Below, piece by piece: positions 4,509 to 35,067 of a stretch of DNA of 35,379 nt. Every line of letters starts with the position of its first letter. Within the stretch, counting starts at the first letter, position 1. The position numbers and the translations under genes are program-made. Source of the DNA: a virus; the IMG/VR virus record IMGVR_UViG_3300025853_000295, positions 1 to 35,379 of that record, one strand, 5' to 3'. Under the pieces are notes generated by a model that had not been told where the DNA came from, made no database searches, and was given only the letters and a program-made list of their open reading frames with translations.

Positions 4509-5464
4509 TGTTCGGTAATACCCCGTTTGCTTCAAGTGCGTTTTCGCATGCTCCTATAGGCGTTGAGGTAGAAGTAACGGGGTTAAGTGCTGTTTCCACT
4601 GTAGGAACAGTATCTGTAGTCGCAAAAGCATCTGTTAACGTAACTGGTATTTTTGTTAATGCTAATACTGGCGACGAAGGCATTGATGCACAAGCTAACA
4701 TAACAGGCACGGGTGTCTCAGCTACTGTTAGCGCTGCTAGTGTAACTATTGATGGGCAAGCCAGTGTAGATGAAACGGGGCTTCAATTAACTTCTACTGT
4801 CGATGTCGTAACCGTTTCCGCCAACTCTGTATTAAATGTTACCGGAGTATCCGCTACCACCGCTGTTGGTATAGAAGACACTGATGCTGATGCAAACGCA
4901 GACGTAACTGGAGTCGATGCTACAGGTTCGGTTGGCTCTGTAGAAATTACCACTGGTAGACGGGTTGAAGTAACTGGCGTAGAGGCCAGCACAGCGATAG
5001 GCGACGAAACCGTTGGTATTGGTATCAATGTACGTCCTACGGGTGTTTCTGCTACTACCACCACAGCCAGCGTAACTATTGAAGCAGACGCGATTATAGA
5101 CATTACGGGTGTTCAGGGCTCGGCCACGGTTGCTGATGTAACTATTACTGCGGATGCGTCACTAGATGTCACAGGTGTAGCTGCTAATACCGCTGTAGGG
5201 GACGAAGGCGTCGATGCGGAAGCCATAGTTACTGAGACTGGGCTTGGAGCTACTACAGCAATTGGTAGCATTACAGTTACTGCAGATGCTACGATAACCC
5301 CAACTGGTGTGGTGGCCGCAGGCGAACTCGGCGTAGCGTTTGTTTGGGGCGAAATCGATGACGCCCAGACTCCGAGCTGGGTAGACGTAGATGATTCACA
5401 AAGCACCACGTGGACGCTCGTGGATGATGGCAACACGGTAACGTGGGTTGAGATAGAAACGTAG
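4508..5464 (+). CDS. 22-residue-repeat structural protein with C-terminal Trp/Asp repeats
   Basis: A 318-residue low-complexity structural protein. From residue 23 to 264 it consists of eleven consecutive repeats starting with (V/I/E/P)-T-G, nine exactly 22 residues long and the others 20 and 24, plus a partial twelfth. Consensus is roughly V-T-G-V-x-A-x-T-x-V-G-x-V-x-V-x-A-x-A-x-V. The alternating small and beta-branched residues suggest a regular beta-solenoid or stack of strands. Residues ~280-318 hold three 11-residue repeats starting with Trp and containing V/I-D-D. There is no signal peptide or enzyme motif. Set among fibres, it is probably an elongated fibre shaft or tail spike; this is inferred from repeat architecture. 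Repeat number may vary between relatives. Confidence 0.75.
   Translation: MFGNTPFASSAFSHAPIGVEVEVTGLSAVSTVGTVSVVAKASVNVTGIFVNANTGDEGIDAQANITGTGVSATVSAASVTIDGQASVDETGLQLTSTVDVVTVSANSVLNVTGVSATTAVGIEDTDADANADVTGVDATGSVGSVEITTGRRVEVTGVEASTAIGDETVGIGINVRPTGVSATTTTASVTIEADAIIDITGVQGSATVADVTITADASLDVTGVAANTAVGDEGVDAEAIVTETGLGATTAIGSITVTADATITPTGVVAAGELGVAFVWGEIDDAQTPSWVDVDDSQSTTWTLVDDGNTVTWVEIET
4574..5299 (+). repeat. Eleven tandem 22-residue coding repeats (about 66 bases each)
   Basis: Each unit begins with codons for V/I/E/P-T-G. Units are 22, 20, 24 and then eight times 22 residues. The repeats are conserved in protein rather than exactly in DNA, so they are old or selected for codon diversity. 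Confidence 0.85.
5345..5461 (+). repeat. Three 11-residue Trp/Asp-Asp coding repeats plus a partial fourth
   Basis: The units read W-G-E-I-D-D-A-Q-T-P-S, W-V-D-V-D-D-S-Q-S-T-T and W-T-L-V-D-D-G-N-T-V-T, with a closing W-V-E-I-E-T. Spacing is exactly 33 bases from Trp codon to Trp codon (5345, 5378, 5411, 5444). This probably forms a compact beta cap or oligomerisation tip. Confidence 0.85.
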
Positions 5465-22800: not shown

Positions 22801-24049
22801 GGGGGAGCAGAAGAACCTACTGGATACGATTACCGGACTCAGTGCGTTTATGTTCAACCACGGCGAAAGATTTAACCGTCAAGTTACGCTGATGGCTATT
22901 TATCAAATGGCTATTGAACGCCAGAAGAAATTAAACGACGCTCGTCCCGCAGATCGTAAACTGGCTGACTCTGTAGTGAAAAAACGAGCTATTGAAGAAG
23001 CTATCGAAAAAACTCAAATGGTTAACGGTGGAACTGTCATCGAAACCGGCATGCGTTATACAAATCAAAACGTGGGGCGTGTAGCGGGTATGTACAAAGG
23101 CTTCGGCGTGCGTATGTATACCACGATGTTTATGGCCTTACGCGACCTACTGAAAGGCATGTATCCGGGTTCCGATGCGGAAACTAAACGAAAACGTAAC
23201 GTGGCGTTTAAGCAATTGGTAGGTTTGCATGGATCGGCAGCTTTGTTTGCAGGGGTATACGGTATCCCTATATACGGAGCCATAGCACTTGCGTACAACA
23301 CATTTGCTGACGAAGACGAAGATGATTTTGACACCGTAGTGCGTAAAGCTATAGGTGAATTTTATTTCAAAGGCCCACTAAACGAACTTACTGGGCTTGA
23401 TGTAGCTAGTCGCGTACGGCTAACAGGACTTGTTATCCAAGAGAATAGATACAACACTAATGCGTCTCCAGAAGAAAATTTATTGTTCTATCTGGGTGGC
23501 CCTGCTCTAAGTGTGGGTAAGCGGTTCGCACGTGGGGTGGCTGATCTCCAAGAGGGCAATATCGAACGCGGTATAGAAAATATGCTACCCGCTGCTATAT
23601 CAAATGCTTACAAAGCTATGCCCATAGGGCGTTACCAAAAAGATGACGGTATATATACTCGTCGGGGCGACCCCATTTATGCTGACATGACGCACGGTGA
23701 ACTAGCTGCTCAGCTTCTTGGCTTCCCACCTGCTGAATACACAGCGCGGCAAGAACGTAATTTGCGGGATAAGCGCATAGAAAAAGCCGTTACCACAACA
23801 CGTACTAAGCTGTTACGTAAGTATTACATCGCGGCTCGTGCGGGGGATCTAGACGCTATGTCAGATGCTATAGACGAAATACTAGACTACAACGACCGGC
23901 ATCCATACGCAGCGATAGATGGGGAGACCTTAGATAAATCAATGAAGCAGCATATTAAGGCTTCTGCAGAAATGTTTGATGGGGTATCTATTAGTCCAAT
24001 AATGCGGGACGCCATTAACATGAGTCGTATGGACTATTCGTTCTATTAA
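16814..24049 (+). CDS. Giant polyvalent ejection protein with zincin motif, T7 gp16-like position
   Basis: A 2411-residue protein, with GGGAGA at 16804-16809 before ATG 16814. Visible order: a 33-residue beta opening (Y-E-L-A-L-K-D-G-R-K-F-D-V-E-G-P-E-G-A-T) common in phage injection proteins; hydrophobic Gly-rich segments at ~174-260; a Pro linker at ~335-355; two similar E-E-L-L-A-R-L-R-P-E / E-E-M-L-A-K-L-R-P-E segments; a long acidic coiled coil to ~800. A zinc metallopeptidase motif H-E-M-G-H follows at 1274-1278, with S-L-E-E-F-V-A-E at 1316-1323 offering a downstream Glu ligand. A large helical C-terminus, with G-M-Y-K-G-F-G-V-R-M-Y and a hydrophobic pair, resembles the LPD38-type domain of polyvalent proteins. 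Probably ejected with DNA; the peptidase may act on host or virion proteins. A T7 gp16-type transglycosylase motif was not found. Confidence 0.75.
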   Translation: MPIYELALKDGRKFDVEGPEGATDAQLAALLNQQLSAPATDSVDPIDQQMQENLAAAEARTKAAQDEFRRVQESDASFGESLADIGIGVQRGTLTIVDAAIDAFGGASSDASKFMKRADKHLAALLSAEGQADAERAAQIIADAEGKGIKEELIAGLQAVAADPSGIISQAGGSAIPFIATSLLGTPALVGLGAVTGAGIVKGGVYDAVESELLKEGVDPERAAAAAEQAQAYGGENIDQILLGTLLGAGAAVGPLERILVKKLSGNIAARLAKGTVAEAIPESIQAGQEKFAQNLALQREGFDVDLGAGVAAQASMEGFAAAPLGGIAGIPRGPETPTTPPPSTPPAEPAPVVDDRGPGEVAAEELLARLRPEGATTTEAEPEAPPAGQTTAEEMLAKLRPESTVADAEVGAAKQDADSADALLDATQAEYNARISELVVDQNLSPEEAELQVAEAQPELKAKLDNAIAGVEEARVRTKEAEKKITAEKTAEEAARVSDLEALLEQERSQQEQDAEAQREQPKTTETTIERTTPEGETTVETTRTQTARGVLAEQQSVKEEQDKRRELLNDPKKLAEYAEETGQTVEEAQALLEQNVVDNLAREGELDDVVNSPEFKELQAEEKAKASKIKFKDTTDPNAEKAALGLAPEEETTPENQRIANIEGLVSYARQKKQVAASKYNTAAREARRLIQRLQPSLTPEQLDSEAASYLQESAEKVALDNATQDLDVLQTEAREGQQERLSQSGASLKRTNEIANRLRAEQKALGKDKSEQLENANVVPDALSEADTEVIDNARNGGYPDANDAKLNPYNALRIYASKSDRPEDVINYIAYDIVYPLSKKVKYEEGKAPAPVYTDQVAQPTISLAQVREHLGKPEGKISQKLQDQARRELGESEQYFEAREINRGLYHRPTALAAAKYLRQYGSKEVRNLLSERLAAWRRSRLTILAAYNNMNMDPDAFIKPNAAAEAVDHVEQRRIEDARLAAEEVVELNKETENLRKQLGAKTPVASKNERKNLLTSQLARGGFLEGLNDLAVAIVLNDTVKLAGEPSFADVVTIYGGDLAITRAFETDEIRDVIREQRALGRYKKVEAKDGQPLSRAERVEASEIDLIKEEDVIKELEQQKRDGEIDVAAFSDEQTDQLIKEARDTFGPIDDDFEAIEDVLADNGIEVYLEYNALMASEALVPPSVYQALKAGDLRLTLDLLQQSTPNKMLARTIRKFMENVGTTKIQLTPGLVDAKGKPVPGKFDPTTNTISINPDEGVTAHAIMHEMGHAITLDTIRNKPGSIHVKRLRTIYDSLKNRLSTAYGAQSLEEFVAEFKSNVEFRKEVARLTAKGQRVSAAREIIRAIRNLLRRVMGLEPKGSEATVAEIDTLIDSIIDPAPYSASGAPAYLNSDRGGVKKIFKHMAINQRRKASEKDRASLLDKILSFLGSPFRLFAQRTLLGAADLLTVSQIYEALGMGRTGFKVQRSIETQRARLVKSDQAVQDEVDNLAEWFDSVGPQAEARFNAVVYSSEFGATIFQIDPNKPRSEYAGKLAKDDVTDLGDVWDDLQRVWNQIGRDVGKGGVNGQQMFNRLRKFYSDQRKSMLEIIQATFKDIMPGDQDASVRQTLISRLLAEQDTLEVYFPLERVGKFMLSYNLDPNSVERGVEPYVVRFFETDKQRERAILELSNDPTVINESFSTDDSGSMEQVAKESPPSSFVNALLTALNNNPETSGEAGRALREQVLRTFVNALPQTAIARSLQKRKGTLGYEANSLLALKNRAFEFGRQVVRMQAVKELNAYQNTINNFALPTYQQVQALIERNPNSTLYDIARANNLTVEYMQRMIEIAGSRNPRRAQRKYHDSIRVVTRELNDRINFAREGARFKGAEEIAKTLNQSAFLFTIGFNVSSYLVNMSQVPLFAFPYLGADYGYTNAYGAIRKAMNQVGVFKNNIESYYTLDEQGNFAVMDTVTDARQRALLEELAPVVQEASGRGLLNQTYIADVIALGEQKNLLDTITGLSAFMFNHGERFNRQVTLMAIYQMAIERQKKLNDARPADRKLADSVVKKRAIEEAIEKTQMVNGGTVIETGMRYTNQNVGRVAGMYKGFGVRMYTTMFMALRDLLKGMYPGSDAETKRKRNVAFKQLVGLHGSAALFAGVYGIPIYGAIALAYNTFADEDEDDFDTVVRKAIGEFYFKGPLNELTGLDVASRVRLTGLVIQENRYNTNASPEENLLFYLGGPALSVGKRFARGVADLQEGNIERGIENMLPAAISNAYKAMPIGRYQKDDGIYTRRGDPIYADMTHGELAAQLLGFPPAEYTARQERNLRDKRIEKAVTTTRTKLLRKYYIAARAGDLDAMSDAIDEILDYNDRHPYAAIDGETLDKSMKQHIKASAEMFDGVSISPIMRDAINMSRMDYSFY

Positions 24050-24071
24050 AAAAACCCCGCACAAGGCGGGG
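24048..24071 (-). terminator. Rho-independent terminator of the leftward operon
   Basis: Read on the minus strand, a six-pair all-matching stem (CCCCGC / GCGGGG, 24055-24060 with 24066-24071) and five-base loop are followed by a run of seven T (complement of the A-run at 24048-24054). On the plus strand the hairpin lacks a T-run on its 3' side, so it mainly ends leftward transcription coming from 24156. The T-run overlaps the stop codon of the giant rightward gene. Confidence 0.85.
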
Positions 24072-24081
24072 CACAGCTTAG

Positions 24082-24102
24082 GGAGTCAACCCTTAGAGGT
24101 AA
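24082..24102 (-). promoter_or_regulatory. Anti-leader element complementary to the 28744-28763 ribosome-binding region
   Basis: On the plus strand this reads GGAGTCAACC-CTT-AGAGGTAA. The mRNA leader of the 28738 gene reads GGAGTCAACC-AA-AGAGGTAA (minus strand, 28763-28744). A leftward transcript of the present element is therefore complementary to that leader over 10+8 bases, covering the Shine-Dalgarno. The core sits in a small stem-loop: AGGG (24080-24083) and CCCT (24090-24093) flank a six-base loop complementary to AGTCAA in the leader, as a seed loop would. It could instead be an inverted copy of the leader with no RNA role. Confidence 0.45.
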
Positions 24103-24103
24103 C

Positions 24104-24142
24104 CACGAAAAAGCAACAGTGAACACTGCCTCAAGTTTCGTG
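24104..24142. repeat. Nested inverted repeat in the convergent intergenic gap
   Basis: Outer arms CACGAAA (24104-24110) and TTTCGTG (24136-24142) pair perfectly over seven bases. Inside lie CAGTG (24117-24121) and CACTG (24124-24128), forming an inner stem, with unpaired bases between. No long T-run follows in either direction, so it is not a plain terminator; it may protect the mRNA 3' end or form the body of the candidate small RNA. Confidence 0.65.
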
Positions 24143-24155
24143 AGTAAACTGTATA

Positions 24156-24350
24156 CTAAAGCCGCCACACACGTAAACCCCTAACTCCTTCTTCGATAAC
24201 GACTTTTGTTAAAATCTTGTATTTAAAGCGGTTAGTGACCGCTTTTATTTCATCTCGTGCCGACTTTGGGTCTAAACAGGGTATAAAAAACGAATACCCT
24301 CGTTTAAAATTACGCCAGTTAACATCGTAGCTAACTTTCTCCACCAGCAT
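24156..24350 (-). CDS. Small conserved-looking protein, unknown function
   Basis: A 64-residue protein, last gene of the leftward operon. Its ATG (24350) lies 20 bases inside the PrimPol gene, so translation is likely coupled. It begins V-E-K-V-S-Y-D-V-N-W-R-N-F-K-R-G, continues Y-S-F-F-I-P-C-L-D, and ends with I-L-T-K-V-V-I-E-E-G-V-R-G-L-R-V-W-R-L. I recognise the pattern F-F-I-P-C-L-D ... K-V-V-I-E-x-G-x-R-G-x-R-V-W-R as recurring in small proteins of marine phages. The fold looks alpha/beta and basic, perhaps nucleic-acid binding. Position beside the replication primase-helicase suggests a replication accessory, but no direct evidence shows this. Confidence 0.68.
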   Translation of the reverse strand: MLVEKVSYDVNWRNFKRGYSFFIPCLDPKSARDEIKAVTNRFKYKILTKVVIEEGVRGLRVWRL

Positions 24351-27165
24351 TTACCGACTCCTCAAACATGCTCTCTACATCTAAGAACTCGCTATTATCG
24401 CAATCTAGTAGCATTGCTCGCGTAGCCGGAGAAGATACTTTCATGCCTTTAGACATACGCTTGTATATCGTATCTTTCAGTATGCCCTTTTTAGTAAGGT
24501 CTTTAAGGACGCCTTTGTAGTTCAAGCGGTACTTAACACAGTCCTCTTTGAACGCCTTAGCAGATATGTACATCAATTTGGTGTCAGGCTCGTACCGTAT
24601 AAGAAGATTGCCTCTAGGCTCCATGAGAGGCAGGGTCGGCATGTTGGAACGAGAATCCACCTCATCATTCACTACCAAAATGTTTTGCATATGCCGGTTA
24701 ATAAAATCACCAACGGTCGCTACGCTGTCGTCAACTGGTGTGCGTACATCCTCACGTAGTTCTGGAAGCATTACTGAACCGCACCACTGATATATACGTT
24801 GTATATCCCAGTTGATAAGCCCTAACCGCCTAGCAATTATGCCGCCTGTTATGTTTGCTGCGATGATCGCGGACCAAAAACGTTCCTTCTGTGTAATTTT
24901 AAACTGCCTATCCGCACGCATTTGGATTGACCGAACAGCTTCTTTTACTTCTTCTAAGTTATTCACAAGGTATTCGGCGTATATGTCGCCAGCGTGACCG
25001 TAGTTTTCTAGTAGATCTGTATCAAACATAAACTTCAAAGCTACGTCGTTCTTGATCTCTTCGTCGGTCGGTATCTTATATTCTATGATCCGCATCATTT
25101 CCGCTTCCGGGCGGTTCTTAACAGACGCAAGAGATTCGTAGAAAGAGCTATTTGCAGAAGTCGTTACCAAAGTACACCAACTGGTCAGGTTCTTACGTAG
25201 CTCGTTACCTGACTGCTTCATACGCTCCTTACCTTTACCTTGTGATACACCATAAGCTAGGTGCGACACTTCTTGCGGAGCACACTCAGTCATTTCGTCC
25301 ATCGTTACAGGTAGATTGTTATGGATACCTAAGCGCATAAACTTGGCGTTCATTGTGTCTTCTTTGAGCGCAGTTAAAGCCCTTGGGTGCCCCCATACGC
25401 TGTTCTGCATGTACAACACTGTAGATTTACCATCGCCAGAGCCTTCTGCTACTAAGCTAATCAAAGCCCCTTGCTGGCCTGTGTATTTGAAAATCGGCGC
25501 ACCGAAAGCACTAAGTGTGGCGAACGCTTGCGGCTCTAGTCCTTTTCGACTGTATATCGCAAAGATCTCTTTCCATTTGTCAAATGAACCGGCCTTCTGC
25601 ATATTCTCCACAAACGATTCCATTGACGGAGACGGAGGCGTGTGAAACACACCGTCTGGAGTTATCTCCCTATCCCCAATAATAAATTTGCTGTCATTAT
25701 CAGCCCATCCAAACTGTAATCTCATCTTCTCCGCCTTCTCTCGTGTTTGCATCTCGCGTACAGATGCAATGATGTACCAACTCAGTAACTCACTTTTTTT
25801 AGTGTTCCCGCACAGTACGCCTTGTTCCGCCAATAGCTTTCTGACTTCTCTAGGTTCTGTTAGTTGGTAATTTGGAATAATAAATTCAATGATACCGTCA
25901 TGCGGAGTGTGCAGTTTAAACACGGCGACATCTTTCTTAACAGGGTCTTTCATACGTTTGAGCAGATACAAGTCGTGCTCGTACACCAGAGTAGGCTCGA
26001 CTTCATCGCTATCAGACTGATGCCATATACCGCCGCCTTTACCACGGAAAAATGGAAACGGGTATTCTGGTATTTTGTATACTTCCGCTACACCGTCTTC
26101 TTCATAAGAAATTATACTGTCCGCTTCGGAGGCACGTTCTATCTCACGGCCAAGCACGATAGGACTTTTAATCTGGCCTTTGAACGGACAATCGTCGCAC
26201 CCACCGGGGTTATTCGCTTCAAACTTTTCGCAAGTATGTGGCCCAACTATGTGCTGTATCTTGTGTTCTACTTCATTATAGTTGTAACCGGGGTATTCAG
26301 AAGACAGTACGTGTATCGCTTTGGACGAGTCCTTGCAGAACTTAGCTATTGATAACGCATTGAACCATCTAGGTTCCGCTAGCGTTTGCTGTTCTTCGTA
26401 ACAGGCTAGTATCTGCGGGCACCCGTTGCCTTTAGCGCTACGCTCTAAAATCTTTTTGAAGCTGTTAGTTGCTGAATCCGCAAACTGCTGGCCTAGCGCA
26501 GTTAACTCACGTTTTGGTGCGGTCTCAACTTTATCTTCTACACCAAGTATGTCTCGTAACTCATTGAAATCTATAGCATTAGCTTCTTGAATTACAGATA
26601 CTGGCTTAGCTGGATCATCTTTAAAGTTATACGTACCGGGCACCCTAAGTACACGCGCAACTTCAAACACCGCAGAGTCTACATATAGCTCATGCGTAAA
26701 GCACAGCTCACGTAGGCGGTGTGCGACTGGCTCCCACTGCTCTCTGGTTACTTCTTCAGTCAGTGCCCAATAAACGTGGATACCACGGCCAGAGTTAACG
26801 AGTATAGGTTCAGGAAGTCCAACTAACTCACGAAACTCTTCTAACGCCGCTAGCCCAGCATCTTGATCTATATAGCCGTCAGGGCGGCCTGTTTTCTTGT
26901 TAACCTCTGCCTTGGTAGGACCACAATCAATGTCCAACCAGAAGGCTTTTAAAGCCCGTACATTATCTTTTTTCCGGTCTACGTCTGTTTGAAACTTAGC
27001 TACCGCAAAGAAAGCATTATATTTATCAGCCACAAACTGTTCTGATATTTCGTCTAGCTCTTCGCGGGTTTGTACAAGTTTTTGTACAATGCTACTCCCC
27101 TTTATACCGAAAGCGCAGAACCAGCCTTCTTCAGGCTGCACTGAGCGTAGTAGGTCGAATGTCAT
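24331..27165 (-). CDS. PrimPol-type primase fused to DUF927-like helicase
   Basis: A 944-residue replication protein. The N-terminal archaeo-eukaryotic primase domain shows L-D-I-D (catalytic D78 and D80), S-G-R-G-I-H-V-Y-W with H130, and R-V-P-G-T-Y-N-F-K near 174-182. A possible zinc site follows: H310, C312, C323, C326. The second half is a DUF927/AAA-type helicase with Walker A E-G-S-G-D-G-K-S-T (574-582), Walker B M-D-E-M-T (D623, E624) and a sensor-like T-T-S-A-N at ~668-672. A winged-helix-like C-terminus (~850-925) resembles the DNA-binding tail of D5-type helicases. It should prime and unwind phage DNA, serving both roles that T7 gp4 has. It lies downstream of the HTH and SSB-like genes. 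PrimPol DNA-synthesis ability is inferred. Confidence 0.85.
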   Translation of the reverse strand: MTFDLLRSVQPEEGWFCAFGIKGSSIVQKLVQTREELDEISEQFVADKYNAFFAVAKFQTDVDRKKDNVRALKAFWLDIDCGPTKAEVNKKTGRPDGYIDQDAGLAALEEFRELVGLPEPILVNSGRGIHVYWALTEEVTREQWEPVAHRLRELCFTHELYVDSAVFEVARVLRVPGTYNFKDDPAKPVSVIQEANAIDFNELRDILGVEDKVETAPKRELTALGQQFADSATNSFKKILERSAKGNGCPQILACYEEQQTLAEPRWFNALSIAKFCKDSSKAIHVLSSEYPGYNYNEVEHKIQHIVGPHTCEKFEANNPGGCDDCPFKGQIKSPIVLGREIERASEADSIISYEEDGVAEVYKIPEYPFPFFRGKGGGIWHQSDSDEVEPTLVYEHDLYLLKRMKDPVKKDVAVFKLHTPHDGIIEFIIPNYQLTEPREVRKLLAEQGVLCGNTKKSELLSWYIIASVREMQTREKAEKMRLQFGWADNDSKFIIGDREITPDGVFHTPPSPSMESFVENMQKAGSFDKWKEIFAIYSRKGLEPQAFATLSAFGAPIFKYTGQQGALISLVAEGSGDGKSTVLYMQNSVWGHPRALTALKEDTMNAKFMRLGIHNNLPVTMDEMTECAPQEVSHLAYGVSQGKGKERMKQSGNELRKNLTSWCTLVTTSANSSFYESLASVKNRPEAEMMRIIEYKIPTDEEIKNDVALKFMFDTDLLENYGHAGDIYAEYLVNNLEEVKEAVRSIQMRADRQFKITQKERFWSAIIAANITGGIIARRLGLINWDIQRIYQWCGSVMLPELREDVRTPVDDSVATVGDFINRHMQNILVVNDEVDSRSNMPTLPLMEPRGNLLIRYEPDTKLMYISAKAFKEDCVKYRLNYKGVLKDLTKKGILKDTIYKRMSKGMKVSSPATRAMLLDCDNSEFLDVESMFEESVNAGGES

Positions 27166-27189
27166 CCCTAAATCCCTTGCTGTGTAATT

Positions 27190-27426
27190 TTATTTGTCAG
27201 CGGCTAGTGAGCTTATTATTTCTTTTATCTGTAGTAACTTGGCACGTGGAGCGTTAGCCCCACAGAACCAGTTGTATACAGTTTGCCGTGTTACACCTAG
27301 ATGGACTGCTACGTCCGAGACGGGTACATCGCGTTCGATGCAGAGCCGCCCCAGTTGTACGCCCAGCGAGTTGCCATCAGCTTTTTTATTCAGCTCGATA
27401 AGCCTATTGCTGTAGCCATAGCTCAT
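27190..27426 (-). CDS. Cro/XRE-like helix-turn-helix regulator
   Basis: A 78-residue DNA-binding protein. The helix-turn-helix is visible at residues ~35-56: V-S-D-V-A-V-H-L-G (helix 2), V-T (turn) and R-Q-T-V-Y-N-W-F-C-G (recognition helix), followed by N-A-P-R as in Cro/C1-type regulators. It lacks an oligomerisation or protease-cleavage domain, so it is Cro-size. Its ATG overlaps the previous stop (TAATG), so it is in the middle of the operon driven by the 28771-28798 promoter. That promoter carries two palindromes; self-regulation is a natural hypothesis. An alternative is a replication-initiation protein binding an origin. Confidence 0.78.
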   Translation of the reverse strand: MSYGYSNRLIELNKKADGNSLGVQLGRLCIERDVPVSDVAVHLGVTRQTVYNWFCGANAPRAKLLQIKEIISSLAADK

Positions 27427-28331
27427 TAGCCTTCATCGCCCCATGTACTCAATACATCAGCGAGTTTGCTGTTTTCTGGTTTAGGTTCAGCTTTTTTAGC
27501 CTGACGCTTAGCTGGCTTCGCTTCTTCTACTACTGGCTCTTCCTCTGGCTCTTCAACAAATGCGGACTGTTCCGGAGCACTAGGCGGCAAAGCAGTGACT
27601 TGATCTGTCTGCGCTGTAGTGATTTTCGTATACATTTCTGTATCGGGGTTCTTCTGTGCCGCAAGGACTAGCTCGTACTCTTCATCCGATACCTGACGGA
27701 TCGGCTTAAACTTTAGCACGTAGGTCTGCCCCGTATTGTTAGGGTCGTGCAGTATCTGCGTTACAACTGTGTCTGGAGATTCTCCGTTACCAGCAAGAAA
27801 CTTAGTGTAGCTCTCAAACGGGTGTGTGTTACCAGTGCCCTTGCCGAACAAAGAACCACCGGGGATTTTTAGTTGATACACAGTGCCTTTGGGGTCACCC
27901 TCAACCATCACAGCAATCCGGCGTTGGAACTTACATGCACGACGCTCACCGCCGCCTGAGCCTTTTATATTTTGAGGGCAGGAGGCGCAGGAGCTTGCTT
28001 GCGGGTTACTACAGCCATCTTCTGGGGAATCACCTTGATTAGCCCAACAATCTGGTAGTGATGGACTATCCGGATCGAAAGCTGAGCTGTAGTATTCACG
28101 GGATATTTCTTTAAGCGCCCCTACGATGATTACATTTAGCGCGTCGCGCACAGAATCCCCAGCTTGTTGCCCGTTAATATACCGAACAAAGTCACCATTG
28201 TTACGCGCCTGTATACGACGAGTATTAGGGACTGTAGGGGCTGGAGCGAACACATCGCCCAATGCACCCTTACGTGGAGTTGATACTGTTACGCCAGTAT
28301 TGTTTTCAAAAATTGAGACTTGATTGCTCAT
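27426..28331 (-). CDS. Zinc-binding-like, acidic-tailed protein; possible ssDNA-binding protein
   Basis: A 301-residue protein. I take ATG 28331 as start because GAGGT (plus 28337-28341) lies five bases upstream; an in-frame GTG at 28343 is weaker. Residues ~95-133 contain five cysteines (C95, C107, C115, C118, C133), a likely zinc site. Residues ~45-80 are a helical region (V-R-Y-I-N-G-Q-Q-A-G), and a beta-like core follows to ~220 (K-G-T-V-Y-Q-L-K-I-P-G). A Glu/Pro/Lys linker leads to the end L-S-T-W-G-D-E-G, an acidic tip like those by which phage single-stranded DNA-binding proteins contact partners. Operon position beside primase-helicase supports this. The fold is not proven; I do not recognise an OB-fold directly. 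Confidence 0.55.
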   Translation of the reverse strand: MSNQVSIFENNTGVTVSTPRKGALGDVFAPAPTVPNTRRIQARNNGDFVRYINGQQAGDSVRDALNVIIVGALKEISREYYSSAFDPDSPSLPDCWANQGDSPEDGCSNPQASSCASCPQNIKGSGGGERRACKFQRRIAVMVEGDPKGTVYQLKIPGGSLFGKGTGNTHPFESYTKFLAGNGESPDTVVTQILHDPNNTGQTYVLKFKPIRQVSDEEYELVLAAQKNPDTEMYTKITTAQTDQVTALPPSAPEQSAFVEEPEEEPVVEEAKPAKRQAKKAEPKPENSKLADVLSTWGDEG

Positions 28332-28339
28332 TGTGTACC

Positions 28340-28738
28340 TCACTTAGAAGTTGGTTTACGTACTTGCACGGTATATTTGCGGTCAGCTTGCAACCCCGTT
28401 GGGTGAACATCTGGGTGTTCTTCGAGAAATTGCTTCATGTTGCCGTTGTGGATTCTTTGTTCAAGCAAAAAAGGAGCATCGTGTTCCTTAATTGTCTTGT
28501 ACATAGCCTCCCAGTCACTCGTCCAATACCGTGACGTAACTCTACGAGTGACTGTGCCTTCGGGTGTGCGGAAGCCATCCTGCCCATTCTCCTCACATAT
28601 TTCTAGTAAGGCTTGAGCCACAGCTTCCAATTGCTCTTTGAGCGTAGCTATCTCTAGCTTGTGCTTGTCTTCTTTCTCACGAATAGAATCGCGGATCTTA
28701 ATGTACACAGGCACTAATTTATCGGCTGGTGTTGCCAT
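28340..28738 (-). CDS. Coiled-coil replication-operon protein, unknown function
   Basis: A 132-residue protein and the first gene after the 28771-28798 promoter. The start is ATG 28738, seven bases after AGAGGT (plus 28746-28751); an in-frame start further upstream would overlap the promoter's -10. Residues ~8-45 are a charged coiled coil (I-K-I-R-D-S-I-R-E-K-E-D-K-H-K-L). The second half reads T-P-E-G-T-V-T-R-R-V-T-S-R-Y-W, then W-E-A-M-Y, L-L-E-Q-R-I-H-N-G-N-M-K-Q-F-L, and ends K-Y-T-V-Q-V-R-K-P. I recall similar proteins next to SSB-like genes in marine phages, annotated only as hypothetical. Basic strands and coiled coil would suit DNA or SSB binding; function remains unknown. Confidence 0.65.
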   Translation of the reverse strand: MATPADKLVPVYIKIRDSIREKEDKHKLEIATLKEQLEAVAQALLEICEENGQDGFRTPEGTVTRRVTSRYWTSDWEAMYKTIKEHDAPFLLEQRIHNGNMKQFLEEHPDVHPTGLQADRKYTVQVRKPTSK

Positions 28739-28743
28739 AGTTA

Positions 28744-28751
28744 TTACCTCT
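28744..28751 (-). promoter_or_regulatory. Ribosome-binding octamer AGAGGTAA of the 28738 gene
   Basis: Minus-strand AGAGGTAA, five bases before ATG 28738. The same octamer precedes the genes starting at 30994, 32269 and 35067 and is the portion complementary to the anti-leader element at 24095-24102. Confidence 0.75.
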
Positions 28752-28766
28752 TTGGTTGACTCCATT

Positions 28767-28784
28767 AACAACTATAGTGTTGTT
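28767..28784 (-). promoter_or_regulatory. Candidate operator overlapping the -10 element
   Basis: Perfect six-base inverted arms AACAAC (28767-28772) and GTTGTT (28779-28784) flank a six-base centre that covers most of the -10. A bound dimeric regulator would block promoter opening. The Cro-like protein encoded at 27190-27426 in the same operon is the obvious candidate. Confidence 0.5.
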
Positions 28785-28798
28785 TTTGACTTTGTCAA
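28771..28798 (-). promoter_or_regulatory. Sigma70-type promoter for the leftward replication operon
   Basis: On the minus strand a perfect -35 TTGACA (plus 28793-28798) and a -10 TATAGT (plus 28771-28776; five of six match consensus) are 16 bases apart. Transcription should begin about 28763-28765, giving a ~26-base leader with AGAGGT before ATG 28738. The -35 overlaps the stop codon of the helicase gene. It implies use of host RNA polymerase for genes 28738 to 24156. Confidence 0.75.
28786..28798 (-). promoter_or_regulatory. Candidate operator overlapping the -35 element
   Basis: TTGAC (28786-28790), three bases, then GTCAA (28794-28798), a perfect inverted repeat that contains the -35 box. 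A further GTCAA in the leader (minus strand, within 28754-28763) gives another copy of the half-site. Repression or activation cannot be told from sequence. Confidence 0.45.
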
Positions 28799-30351
28799 GA
28801 ACTTAATTCTTGACGGTATAAATCAATGATCTTCTCGTGGTTGCTGATGTTGTTTCTAAGCATGTTGTACAGTTTGTCTTCTACTTCACTGCCCTGTATG
28901 TGCACGATTGTCATCGCGTTCTTCTGTCCGGGACGGTTGATACGCGCATTGGCTTGCAAATAAGTCTCAACACTGGTCACTGGTGCATACCAGATGATTG
29001 TGTTTGCCGCAGTCAGAGTGAGTCCATGCGACGCGGCTTGCGGTTGGATAATAAGAACACGAGGCGTGGGCTGTTCTTGAAAATCTTTAACAATATCGCT
29101 CCGTTTGTTGACAGAAACTTTGCCGTTAATAACAGCGCATGAATGATTTTTATTCTCAAGATGAGCGCGTAGTAACTCAATTGTGTGCGTAAAGGGAACG
29201 AAGACAAGCACCTTGTGTGACGACTCATTGATAACTTCCTCGATTACATTTAGCCTATTAGACACATCAAACTCAATAACTTCACGGGTATCGGTATACA
29301 CACAGCCGCCAGATATTTGCAGTAGTTTGTTTATTTTAGTCGCCGCATTGAACGCGGTTACTTGTTCCCCGTCGGCCTCCATCATCATTTCTTTCTTGAG
29401 GTCTAAGTAATACTTCTTCTGTTGAGTGGTTAACGGGGCTTCTCGCTCTACGTGCGTAACTTCAGGTAGGTCTAAACATTGATCCTTCTCAAACCGGATA
29501 GCGGGCTGTAGCAGTCTGTGTATATAGTCTTGAGACTTTGGCTTTGGCACCCACTTAAATTGAGTCACTTTAAACATCACAGCGTCCCGGAACTGCCCGT
29601 AAAACTTAGGGCAATGGACAGGATTTATTAGCTTAGCTAGACCATATGCGTCTAAAGGTGACTGCGCGGCTGGTGTGCCTGTGAGCATCCACAGCCATTC
29701 AGTTTTAAGCATCACATCGCGTAATACCTTCCAACGATTAGTTTGCGGGTTCTTATAGGCGCTAGCTTCATCAACCACAACCATGTCAAAGCCGCCAGCC
29801 ATAATGGTTTCTTTTACTACTCCGAGGCCATCAAAGTTAATCACTACGAACTCAGCGCCAGCTTCAATAATTTTCTTGCGGGCACGTTTGTCACCATAAG
29901 CAACAGAACAGCTACGGTGCATGGCAAATTTAAACAGATCTTGTTGCCATGCTGACTTCATAATAGATAACGGGCATAGCACTAGCACGCGCTTTATGCG
30001 CCCTTGCTTCATTAGGTAGTCAGCCGCCCAGATTACTGATGCTGTCTTACCTGTACCCTGCTCGTTGAAGCAGAAAGCCTTCTTATGTAGTGATAAGAAT
30101 GAAGCTGTTTCTTTTTGATGGTCGAACGGCGTGAACTTGCCTGTCCACTGGTAGTCGCGTTTAATAGTAGACGGCGGTGTTTTAAAAGGCAGAGAAGCAA
30201 GAGTCTGCATTTCATCCAGCCCCCAGTTCACTGCTACTTTGTATATACCGTCTTCTTGTTCCTCTAGGATCGCGCTCTTTGTAATTGCGTCTGTAATTGC
30301 CTGCGGATTACGTGTTAGCAGGGTTAAGACTTTATTTTCTACGACTTCCAT
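28795..30351 (-). CDS. SNF2-family (SF2) helicase/ATPase
   Basis: A 518-residue DNA-dependent ATPase. Walker A E-Q-G-T-G-K-T lies at 97-103, motif Ia P-L-S-I-M-K-S-A-W at ~127-135, Walker B V-V-V-D-E-A-S at 191-197 (DEAS variant), motif III L-T-G-T-P-A-A-Q, and the second RecA lobe ends with Q-A-N-A-R-I-N-R-P-G-Q-K (motif VI), where R-I-x-R-P-G-Q is typical of SNF2 proteins. The length is minimal: no chromatin-type accessory domains. Phage relatives are thought to help replication, recombination or repair. The gene starts 20 bases inside the HNH gene and its end overlaps the promoter -35. The ribosome-binding site is weak, so expression may depend on coupling. Confidence 0.9.
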   Translation of the reverse strand: MEVVENKVLTLLTRNPQAITDAITKSAILEEQEDGIYKVAVNWGLDEMQTLASLPFKTPPSTIKRDYQWTGKFTPFDHQKETASFLSLHKKAFCFNEQGTGKTASVIWAADYLMKQGRIKRVLVLCPLSIMKSAWQQDLFKFAMHRSCSVAYGDKRARKKIIEAGAEFVVINFDGLGVVKETIMAGGFDMVVVDEASAYKNPQTNRWKVLRDVMLKTEWLWMLTGTPAAQSPLDAYGLAKLINPVHCPKFYGQFRDAVMFKVTQFKWVPKPKSQDYIHRLLQPAIRFEKDQCLDLPEVTHVEREAPLTTQQKKYYLDLKKEMMMEADGEQVTAFNAATKINKLLQISGGCVYTDTREVIEFDVSNRLNVIEEVINESSHKVLVFVPFTHTIELLRAHLENKNHSCAVINGKVSVNKRSDIVKDFQEQPTPRVLIIQPQAASHGLTLTAANTIIWYAPVTSVETYLQANARINRPGQKNAMTIVHIQGSEVEDKLYNMLRNNISNHEKIIDLYRQELSS

Positions 30352-34743: not shown

Positions 34744-35067
34744 TCATCGATTACCGCCAAACTTCAACCCACCCTTAGCAACCGGACGGTCTTCATCACG
34801 CAGTAGCTCGTTCATGATACGCTGTGTGGTTACATCACCTTGAACTAGCATTAGCTTTTGGAATACTTGGGACAATTCGTCGTCGGACAGGAAGCCAAGC
34901 ATGAATGATGGCTCGCCACGCACCATTGCTTCAGCGCGTTCCATCAAAGGCTTGACAACGAAATCCCAACGTTTCTCTGGATTAAGCTGAGTAGCTCTAA
35001 ACGTCAGATCAAACTCTTCAGGATGGCTCTCCATACGAGCCATGAGAATTTCCATACTCTTGTGCAT
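34744..35067 (-). CDS. Uncharacterised helical replication-region protein
   Basis: A 107-residue protein with AGAGGTAA (plus 35074-35081) ahead of ATG 35067, starting 50 bases inside the VRR-NUC gene. It is largely helical (M-E-I-L-M-A-R-M-E-S-H-P-E-E-F, W-D-F-V-V-K-P-L-M-E-R-A-E-A-M, D-D-E-L-S-Q-V-F-Q-K-L-M) with a basic, Gly-rich tail K-G-G-L-K-F-G-G-N-R. No catalytic motif is visible. Position between VRR-NUC and PolA suggests a replication accessory or polymerase partner; I do not recognise the family. Confidence 0.65.
   Translation of the reverse strand: MHKSMEILMARMESHPEEFDLTFRATQLNPEKRWDFVVKPLMERAEAMVRGEPSFMLGFLSDDELSQVFQKLMLVQGDVTTQRIMNELLRDEDRPVAKGGLKFGGNR

Follow-up and report, generated by a model that had tools for sequence, protein, structure and literature searches.

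A candidate antisense small RNA at the 3' end of a phage replication operon, complementary to the leader of the operon's own Mu Gam-like gene

The viral record IMGVR_UViG_3300025853_000295 from IMG/VR, whose complete stretch of 35,379 nucleotides is referred to here as the window, carries a leftward replication operon that ends in a short conserved element, located between the last gene of the operon (64 amino acids, aa) and its terminator. This element is complementary to the leader of the first gene of the same operon, which appears to encode a Mu Gam-like protein, and the complementarity covers the Shine-Dalgarno sequence. We consider it likely that the element is the gene of a phage antisense small RNA (sRNA), transcribed from its own promoter, that would keep the Mu Gam-like gene, and in some lineages a helicase or primase gene, from being translated. 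The complementarity and its conservation, the co-change of loop and leader, the maintenance of a hairpin stem through sequence changes and a promoter-like constraint next to the element were all computed here.

The match between the two sites is divided into two parts. On the plus strand, positions 24082-24102 read GGAGTCAACC (24082-24091), CTT (24092-24094) and AGAGGTAA (24095-24102), and on the minus strand positions 28763-28744 read GGAGTCAACC (28763-28754), AA (28753-28752) and AGAGGTAA (28751-28744), followed directly by TAACT and the ATG at 28738. The leftward transcript of the element is antisense to the leader over 10 + 8 bases with a 2/3-base offset between them. An earlier note on this DNA had described both sequences with their coordinates and an 18-base antisense match over the Shine-Dalgarno, all of which is read directly from the letters; the small stem at 24080-24093 (AGGG/CCCT), which it had described as presenting the complement of AGTCAA, was reproduced by the predicted fold, and its placement of the leader at or near the 5' end of the mRNA agrees with the operon promoter, whose expected transcription start, at about 28764-28763, falls on the first base of the paired stretch.

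The predicted pairing is far better than that of shuffled sequence, a comparison that the same note had proposed. The duplex of the element (24143-24073) with the leader (28764-28730) has a calculated energy of -39.6 kcal/mol, whereas dinucleotide shuffles of the element and of the leader averaged -17.4 and -18.4 kcal/mol and none of 5,000 on either side was as strong; a joint fold of element and leader was 21.0 kcal/mol better than the two separate folds. When 35-base segments were taken every 5 bases from both strands of the 35-kb record, leaving out the element's own region, the leader ranked first of 14,038 as duplex partner of the element, and the gene starting at 28738 ranked first among the 38 predicted gene starts of the window (-34.5, with a runner-up at -24.5). 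The contiguous match of 10 bases is unremarkable alone, as 11- and 12-base matches exist elsewhere in the window; we judge the match meaningful because it has two parts, because of where these lie and, above all, because it is conserved. A chance match is disfavoured by the shuffles, the genome ranking and the conservation. The conservation, the hairpin stem maintained through changes on both sides and the parallel variation of loop and leader across lineages support the view that the complementarity exists for a reason.

Relatives of the window share a common plan in which a small gene ending in ..GLRVWR-stop comes after the end of a primase gene and is itself succeeded by one or two hairpins and a terminator. 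This cassette, recognised by the end of the small gene, a CTCC and a terminator-like end, was present in 180 of the 232 loci examined (the window plus L001-L231, several contigs being counted more than once), with 125 distinct element sequences. The remaining 52 loci lack it, many because the contig ends there, so that 180 of 232 is no measure of prevalence. Protein searches supplied 73 of the 180 loci, and the other 107 were among the matches listed for a DNA pattern designed on the cassette, which contained GCTCC and thereby biased these loci towards that core; since this pattern gave at least 120 matches, the family is larger than our sample. The small gene itself had a homologue in all 43 representatives. 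Bacterial genomes yielded a single contig with the cassette, from a metagenome-assembled genome (L114), and plasmids yielded distant primase matches only. Phage records held no near DNA match to the window; the nearest by primase were Pseudomonas phage Rollin and the Rhizobium phages RHph_TM, at less than 30% identity, and no such cassette was seen by eye in the stretches inspected past the primase of Rollin and RHph_TM3_14A.

Leaders vary by lineage, and most loops vary along with them. A Gam-like leader was readable in 130 of the 180 loci (50 had none; L089, L091, L154, L161 and L179 are unscored in the seed-base test below), giving 102 distinct leader/element pairs, of which 93 have at least 9 contiguous complementary bases. 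The leader/loop combination is GGAGTCAACC/GGTTGACTCC in the window group, GGAGCTAGC/GCTAGCTCC in L050, GGAGCAATC/GATTGCTCC in L009, GGAGCGAA/TTCGCTCC in L091, GGAGCAAAAC/GTTTTGCTCC in L116 and GGAGCTAA/TTAGCTCC in the L017 group, and further lineages have GGAGCAAAC/GTTTGCTCC and GGAGCAACC/GGTTGCTCC. Among 35 representatives with less than 80% identity, 32 have at least 9 contiguous bases complementary to their own Gam-like leader, a count that was the same whether the leader was scored over 48 bases or over the 28 used for other genes. The sense-orientation control gave 0 of 35 and shuffled elements 0.8%. Fits of this length at other gene starts were found for the 305-aa gene in 1 of 34, the helix-turn-helix (HTH) gene in 0 of 33, the primase in 4 of 34, the 64-aa gene in 1 of 34, the exonuclease in 0 of 24, the 95-aa gene in 2 of 25 and the helicase in 12 of 24.

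Leaders paired with the elements of other lineages also reach 9 bases in half of cases, because GGAGC is common to most leaders, and the decisive test is therefore the fit of the five bases beyond GGAG. Over the 35 representatives the own loop fits 4.26 of these five bases and the loops of other lineages 3.64, with 0 of 20,000 permutations as high; the 16 representatives obtained by protein search only gave 4.44 against 3.46, again with 0 of 20,000 permutations as high, and at least 9 contiguous bases in 14 of 16. In nearest-neighbour contrasts, which cross clades and are not fully independent, the matched combination was better in 20, equal in 6 and worse in 1 of the 27 pairs whose leaders differ, and better in 18, equal in 3 and worse in 2 of the 23 pairs whose loops differ. 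These results bear on the idea that the loop is a general anti-Shine-Dalgarno decoy for many host and phage mRNAs and that its fit to the Gam-like leader is incidental. The GCUCC of most loops would indeed fit any GGAGC, the cross-lineage fits are as frequent as just described, several starts within a single phage can match (L103, L109, L111) and the RNA sometimes has a better partner than the Gam-like start; yet the bases past GGAG track the lineage's own leader and most other operon starts do not fit, and we regard such a decoy as improbable.

The complementary bases sit in the loop of a predicted hairpin, and this hairpin is itself maintained. All of the 56 non-redundant hairpins compared close with a G-C pair; the second pair is A-U or G-C, and the third and fourth pairs are also found as U-A and C-G (with one G-U). 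Pairs 1-4 are intact in all 56 and pair 5 in 53; because the hairpins were chosen for at least 4 pairs, full pairing at positions 1-4 is partly a matter of selection, whereas the variety of pairs at positions 2-4 is not. The region 24146-24048 as a whole folds better than its shuffles (z -2.45; 5 of 200 as good). That stem, kept through two-sided changes, argues for an RNA, as do the different spacers of the two sites (2 versus 3 bases) and the empty sense control. A binding site in DNA, or a leader duplicated on the plus strand, with no RNA involved, would account for an identical sequence at two places on opposite strands, and we find this explanation very hard to reconcile with the foregoing.

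The predicted RNA lies at the 3' end of the operon and finishes at the operon terminator, and it is probably the product of a small RNA gene transcribed from a promoter of its own, not a processed piece of the 3' untranslated region (UTR). The last codons of the 64-aa gene contain the -35 of the proposed promoter, and their synonymous positions appear constrained. In 27 non-redundant loci derived from protein searches, identified with a pattern that fixed some bases of this stretch (GG, CG, TGG and the T of the Leu codon) and left the scored third positions free, TTA serves as the Leu codon within TTTACG in 20, where the codon usage of the respective phage would predict 2.9; GGT encodes the Gly before it in 23 (9.8 predicted), and AGG encodes the residue before that Gly in 11 (3.0 predicted). 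A TATA follows within 9 bases of the stop codon in 16 of the 27, only at offsets of 0-2, which correspond to 16-18 bases after TTTACG. Transcription from this promoter would start at about 24143 and yield an RNA of about 96 nucleotides (nt).

Two alternatives that dispense with such a promoter deserve consideration. In the first, the operon's 3' UTR would fold back on its own 5' leader within a single mRNA as a translation switch, with no separate sRNA; the earlier note had offered this pairing switch as an alternative. Element and leader do lie on one predicted transcript with the same terminator, and icaR is a described precedent (PMC3868564). Against it stand the promoter-like sequence right before the element with its codon constraint on the -35, the distance of about 4.7 kb between leader and element, and the further targets (the helicase start and an early gene, L001:993), which need not share the RNA, and we consider it less likely than a separate sRNA. 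In the second, an sRNA would be cut from the operon mRNA by an RNase and then act in trans, in the way of OppZ and CarZ, which arise by processing (PMC7398697). The position immediately 3' of the last gene would suit this origin; the promoter signals in the 27 non-redundant loci argue otherwise, and we give it a low probability, noting that processing and an own promoter could coexist. The proposal of a 3'UTR-derived sRNA in the earlier note is accordingly retained in part: a conserved, leader-complementary element does occupy the operon's 3' end, but it is probably not a processed 3'UTR piece.

Several observations weigh against an sRNA with its own promoter directed at the Gam-like leader. 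The proposed promoter of the small RNA, which in the window has 8 of 12 consensus bases and a -10 that does not end in T, was absent from the output of the promoter scan. No cassette follows the small gene in L010 and L014, and L011 has a different 3' element there. When 20 loci were ranked in the same way as the window, the Gam-like start came first in 9 and second or third in 8, so that it is not always the best partner; L075 placed it ninth, and in L006 and L059 this start was missing from the gene calls. The seed fit over the 35 representatives was 5/5 in 16, 4/5 in 13, 3/5 in 5 and 2/5 in L202. Leaders of L067 and L071 read GGAGCTAA but their loop is UUUGCUCC, in contrast to the perfect fit of the related L050, and the fit is poor in L036, L063, L126, L161 and L179; within the window group, L006 (GGAGTCAACA) and L089 (TAGAGTCAACT) lose edge pairs of the first helix without compensation. 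In the comparison of relatives suggested in the earlier note, loop and leader thus mostly co-vary, with the exceptions just named.

Phylogeny limits the co-change argument in a further way. A tree of 67 representatives provided few independent pairs, and no sign test on it was significant. At positions 1-4 after GGAG the pairs going the same way numbered about 1 of 1, 1.9 of 2, 1 of 2 and 2.8 of 7, with at most 0.1 opposite and the rest showing no difference; at position 5 only 1.4 of 14 went the same way and 0.7 the opposite way, and no tree-controlled association was found at this position. The direction of co-change is consistent, and the strict phylogenetic test, being underpowered, only points the same way. 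That the sequences are related and the tree-independent co-changes few is what speaks for chance or shared ancestry alone as the source of the fit; the duplex rank, the 93 of 102 pair fits, the permutation tests and the controls at 9 or more bases make this barely credible.

Our preferred model of an sRNA with its own promoter would operate as follows. The operon promoter would yield an mRNA whose 5' end is the target leader, and RNA polymerase would also start at the sigma-70-like promoter whose -35 overlaps the end of the 64-aa coding sequence and whose -10 comes just past its stop. Transcription would run to the operon terminator, and the resulting RNA would be 60-100 nt long and contain one hairpin for the seed and another for the terminator. 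The seed loop, together in the window with the stretch before it, would pair in trans over the Shine-Dalgarno of the Gam-like leader and block ribosome binding there. As the RNA built up, expression of the Gam-like gene would fall, and so would that of the SNF2 helicase or the primase in certain lineages. Each round of genome replication also copies the RNA gene, so that RNA levels could climb as replication advances and provide negative feedback. Separate transcription, action in trans, repression in preference to activation and a turning down of the replication genes as infection proceeds are what we would expect of this RNA. A broader proposal, which we put forward tentatively and regard as somewhat less probable than not, is that a widespread family of such RNAs constitutes a modular brake on replication operons, in which one loop tracks the Gam-like leader in most lineages, other parts of the RNA gain complementarity to the helicase or primase start, and loop and targets go on evolving in concert, giving each phage a private sRNA-leader code; such a code, if real, would also separate each phage from co-infecting relatives.

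Further targets were sought by comparing the duplex energy of each gene start with its own RNA and with the RNAs of other lineages, p values being calculated without regard to relatedness. The own RNA was favoured at the Gam-like start (-2.54 kcal/mol, n = 43, p = 1.2e-6), the primase start (-2.09 kcal/mol, n = 43, p = 0.003) and the helicase start (-1.89 kcal/mol, n = 30, p = 0.01), and no difference was found at nine other genes with at least 6 loci, including the exonuclease, 305-aa, HTH, 95-aa, 64-aa and polymerase genes. The start of the SNF2 helicase may therefore be a second target in many relatives, and not clearly so in the window. The primase signal comes mostly from one clade, in which a different stretch of the RNA has up to 17 bases complementary to the start GAGTGATGCAATGC. 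The fit within that clade is uneven (17 bases in L137, 15 in L221, 14 in L203, 9 in L117, L168 and L229, and 8 in L219), with a matched change at the primase start of L203 (GAGTGATGTAATG) and a poor fit in L219. Of 112 distinct cases, 14 have at least 9 contiguous complementary bases at the primase start, namely 10 with a GAGTGATG-type start and L060, and L118, L165 and L194, where the match lies in coding sequence. We rejected the primase as a general target, as its fit is confined to one clade.

Other possible partners of the RNA are of narrower occurrence. In L060, L015 and the L017 group, the first RNA hairpin carries CGTCTCATCT or CTCGTCT and matches 10, 8 or 7 bases just upstream of the primase start, which is suggestive only. 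In the window group the GUUACCUCU seed also fits the early gene L001:993 and the gene at window position 35067. The latter, of 107 aa, was rejected as a general second target: single cases fit well (the window, L029, L109), and the group as a whole gave no signal (n = 13, p = 0.63). A gene resembling window 35067-34744 occurs at about 2619 in L029 and about 3060 in L048, and its start would pair with two stretches of the small RNA simultaneously (-34.1 and -25.2 kcal/mol), making it a possible extra target in the AT-rich group.

Comparison with described systems places the element near several of them. OppZ and CarZ of Vibrio cholerae are 3'UTR-derived autoregulatory sRNAs processed by RNase E, OppZ requiring Hfq (PMC7398697); like them, the candidate RNA is located at an operon's 3' end and is complementary to the translation start of its own operon, and unlike these bacterial RNAs it belongs to a phage cassette, is preceded by promoter-like sequence and has complementarity to other gene starts as well. 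The icaR mRNA of Staphylococcus aureus carries a motif in its 3' UTR that base-pairs with its own Shine-Dalgarno region (PMC3868564); this differs in joining the two ends of one mRNA of a single bacterial gene. Phage small RNAs are known mainly from a few model phages (PMC12197685). Among these, the c4 RNA of P1 and P7 and the sar RNA of P22 are antisense RNAs that block translation of the antirepressor gene ant, c4 acting around the ribosome-binding site, probably with complementary bases in loops, and the OOP RNA of lambda is a small antisense RNA with its own promoter directed at cII (PMC12197685). The candidate shares with c4 and sar a phage-encoded RNA complementary to the translation start of a phage mRNA, and with c4 the presentation in loops. 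Its target is neither an antirepressor nor a lysogeny regulator but Mu Gam-like; it differs from c4 and sar in its Gam-like and replication gene targets and in the co-change of loop and leader over a large phage group, and from OOP in that the target lies 4.7 kb from the RNA gene. The element thus resembles OppZ and CarZ in place and target, icaR in 3'-5' pairing, and c4, sar and OOP in kind, with membership in none of them indicated by these comparisons.

Known RNA families offered no closer counterpart. The window matched no Rfam family at E values up to 1, and no family reached its gathering score over the tested cassettes. The best match of the window cassette alone was suhB/mmgR (RF00519), at 21.8 bits against a threshold of 41; eight relatives gave four Rfam matches, one of them on a cassette (suhB/mmgR in L018, 25.1 against 41, at 5073-5150, overlapping the element at 5047-5138), and the L100 cassette matched rli32 best, at 26.2 bits against 100. 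With all three cassette matches far under their gathering scores, assignment to a known RNA family was rejected. Across window 24107-24040 (minus strand) and L018 5073-5150, no family other than suhB/mmgR ranked close to the top in each case. The element is weakly like suhB/mmgR and other bacterial sRNAs in its C-rich unpaired stretch and terminator hairpin, as seen in the L018 alignment, and unlike suhB/mmgR in that the score is well under threshold and owes much to the terminator, with no lineage-specific loop to compare; the likeness may reflect a common plan of C-rich stretch plus terminator. A literature search, conducted mostly by title and without subscription papers, found no description of the element, in line with the earlier note, whose author knew of no described case in this phage group. 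If our interpretation is correct, many uncultivated phages of one large group would possess an sRNA family that can be recognised from sequence alone by its lineage-specific target fit, which would point to negative feedback at the post-transcriptional level on genes of replication and recombination. Because the loop-leader pairs differ, reporters in a laboratory strain could test the model directly, and the phage's own host is not needed for this.

The coordinates of the features discussed are collected in the following table.

Features of the operon and of the proposed small RNA in the window (positions in the 35,379-nt stretch; all on the minus strand)
Feature	Position	Strand	Basis
Proposed -35, TTTACG	24172..24177	-	TTA Leu codon bias in relatives
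Proposed -10, TATACA	24150..24155	-	16 bases after the -35; TATA position conserved
Proposed small RNA, about 96 nt	24048..24143	-	Start inferred from the -10; fold; cassette conservation
5' hairpin, CACGAAA...TTTCGTG	24104..24142	-	Fold; by eye, outer stem kept and interior differing in L005, L006, L089
Seed 1, GUUACCUCU	24095..24103	-	Mostly unpaired in fold; complementary to Shine-Dalgarno AGAGGUAA
Hairpin AGGG-UUGACU-CCCU, loop = seed 2	24080..24093	-	Complementary to GGAGUCAACC at the mRNA 5' end
Intrinsic terminator, CCCCGCCTTGTGCGGGG + T run	24048..24072	-	Terminator scan; present in L004, L005, L006, L089
64-aa gene, last before the element	24156..24350	-	Open reading frame; end ..RGLRVWR conserved in relatives
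Mu Gam-like 132-aa gene behind the target leader	28340..28738	-	Pfam matches of family members
Target leader, GGAGTCAACC-AA-AGAGGTAA	28744..28763	-	Read directly; includes the Shine-Dalgarno; starts at the expected mRNA start
Operon first-gene promoter, TTGACA-16-TATAGT	28771..28798	-	11/12 consensus bases; kept in close relatives L003-L008
SNF2-type helicase gene	28795..30351	-	Pfam

The identity of the gene behind the target leader is suggested by its family to be Mu Gam-like. PF07352 (Phage_Mu_Gam) was matched by 24 of 35 family members at E values up to 0.01 (best 7e-7), as was a Pam3 gp33-like family, also by 24 of 35 at E up to 0.01; the window's own 132-aa protein matched PF07352 weakly (E 0.012). 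The predicted model of this protein combines a long helix with a mixed sheet (predicted local distance difference test, pLDDT, 91.8; predicted template modelling score, pTM, 0.61). Searching BFVD returned phage relatives, one of them called a host-nuclease inhibitor (E 1.9e-3), and a PDB fold search with the protein gave no significant match. Proteins of the Mu Gam family bind DNA ends and inhibit host nucleases. The PHROG 13900 label of minor head protein for 28340-28738 was set aside, as Pfam and the place in a replication operon favour a Mu Gam-like protein.

Several minor features accompany the two ends of the operon. A terminator-like hairpin for rightward transcripts lies on the plus strand at 24225-24245 and would extend the 3' UTR of the 2411-aa tail gene over the small RNA, making the late mRNA antisense to it; no intact copy of this hairpin was seen by eye in L005 or L006. 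At the other end, a palindrome TTGAC-NNN-GTCAA (TTGACAAAGTCAA) overlaps the operon -35 at 28798-28786, occurs in the leaders of many loci and is kept in distant relatives such as L060, L091 and L098; it resembles an operator, and the gene of an HTH protein (27426-27190) is located within the same operon. In three relatives a tRNA gene ends 14-17 bases before the Gam-like start codon (L100, 81-158; L111, 6227-6298, of unresolved type; L130, 1397-1472), and tRNA processing could generate the 5' end of the target leader there. A tRNA gene in L103 (5432-5509) is placed likewise before a different start, with AGGAGCAAAC.

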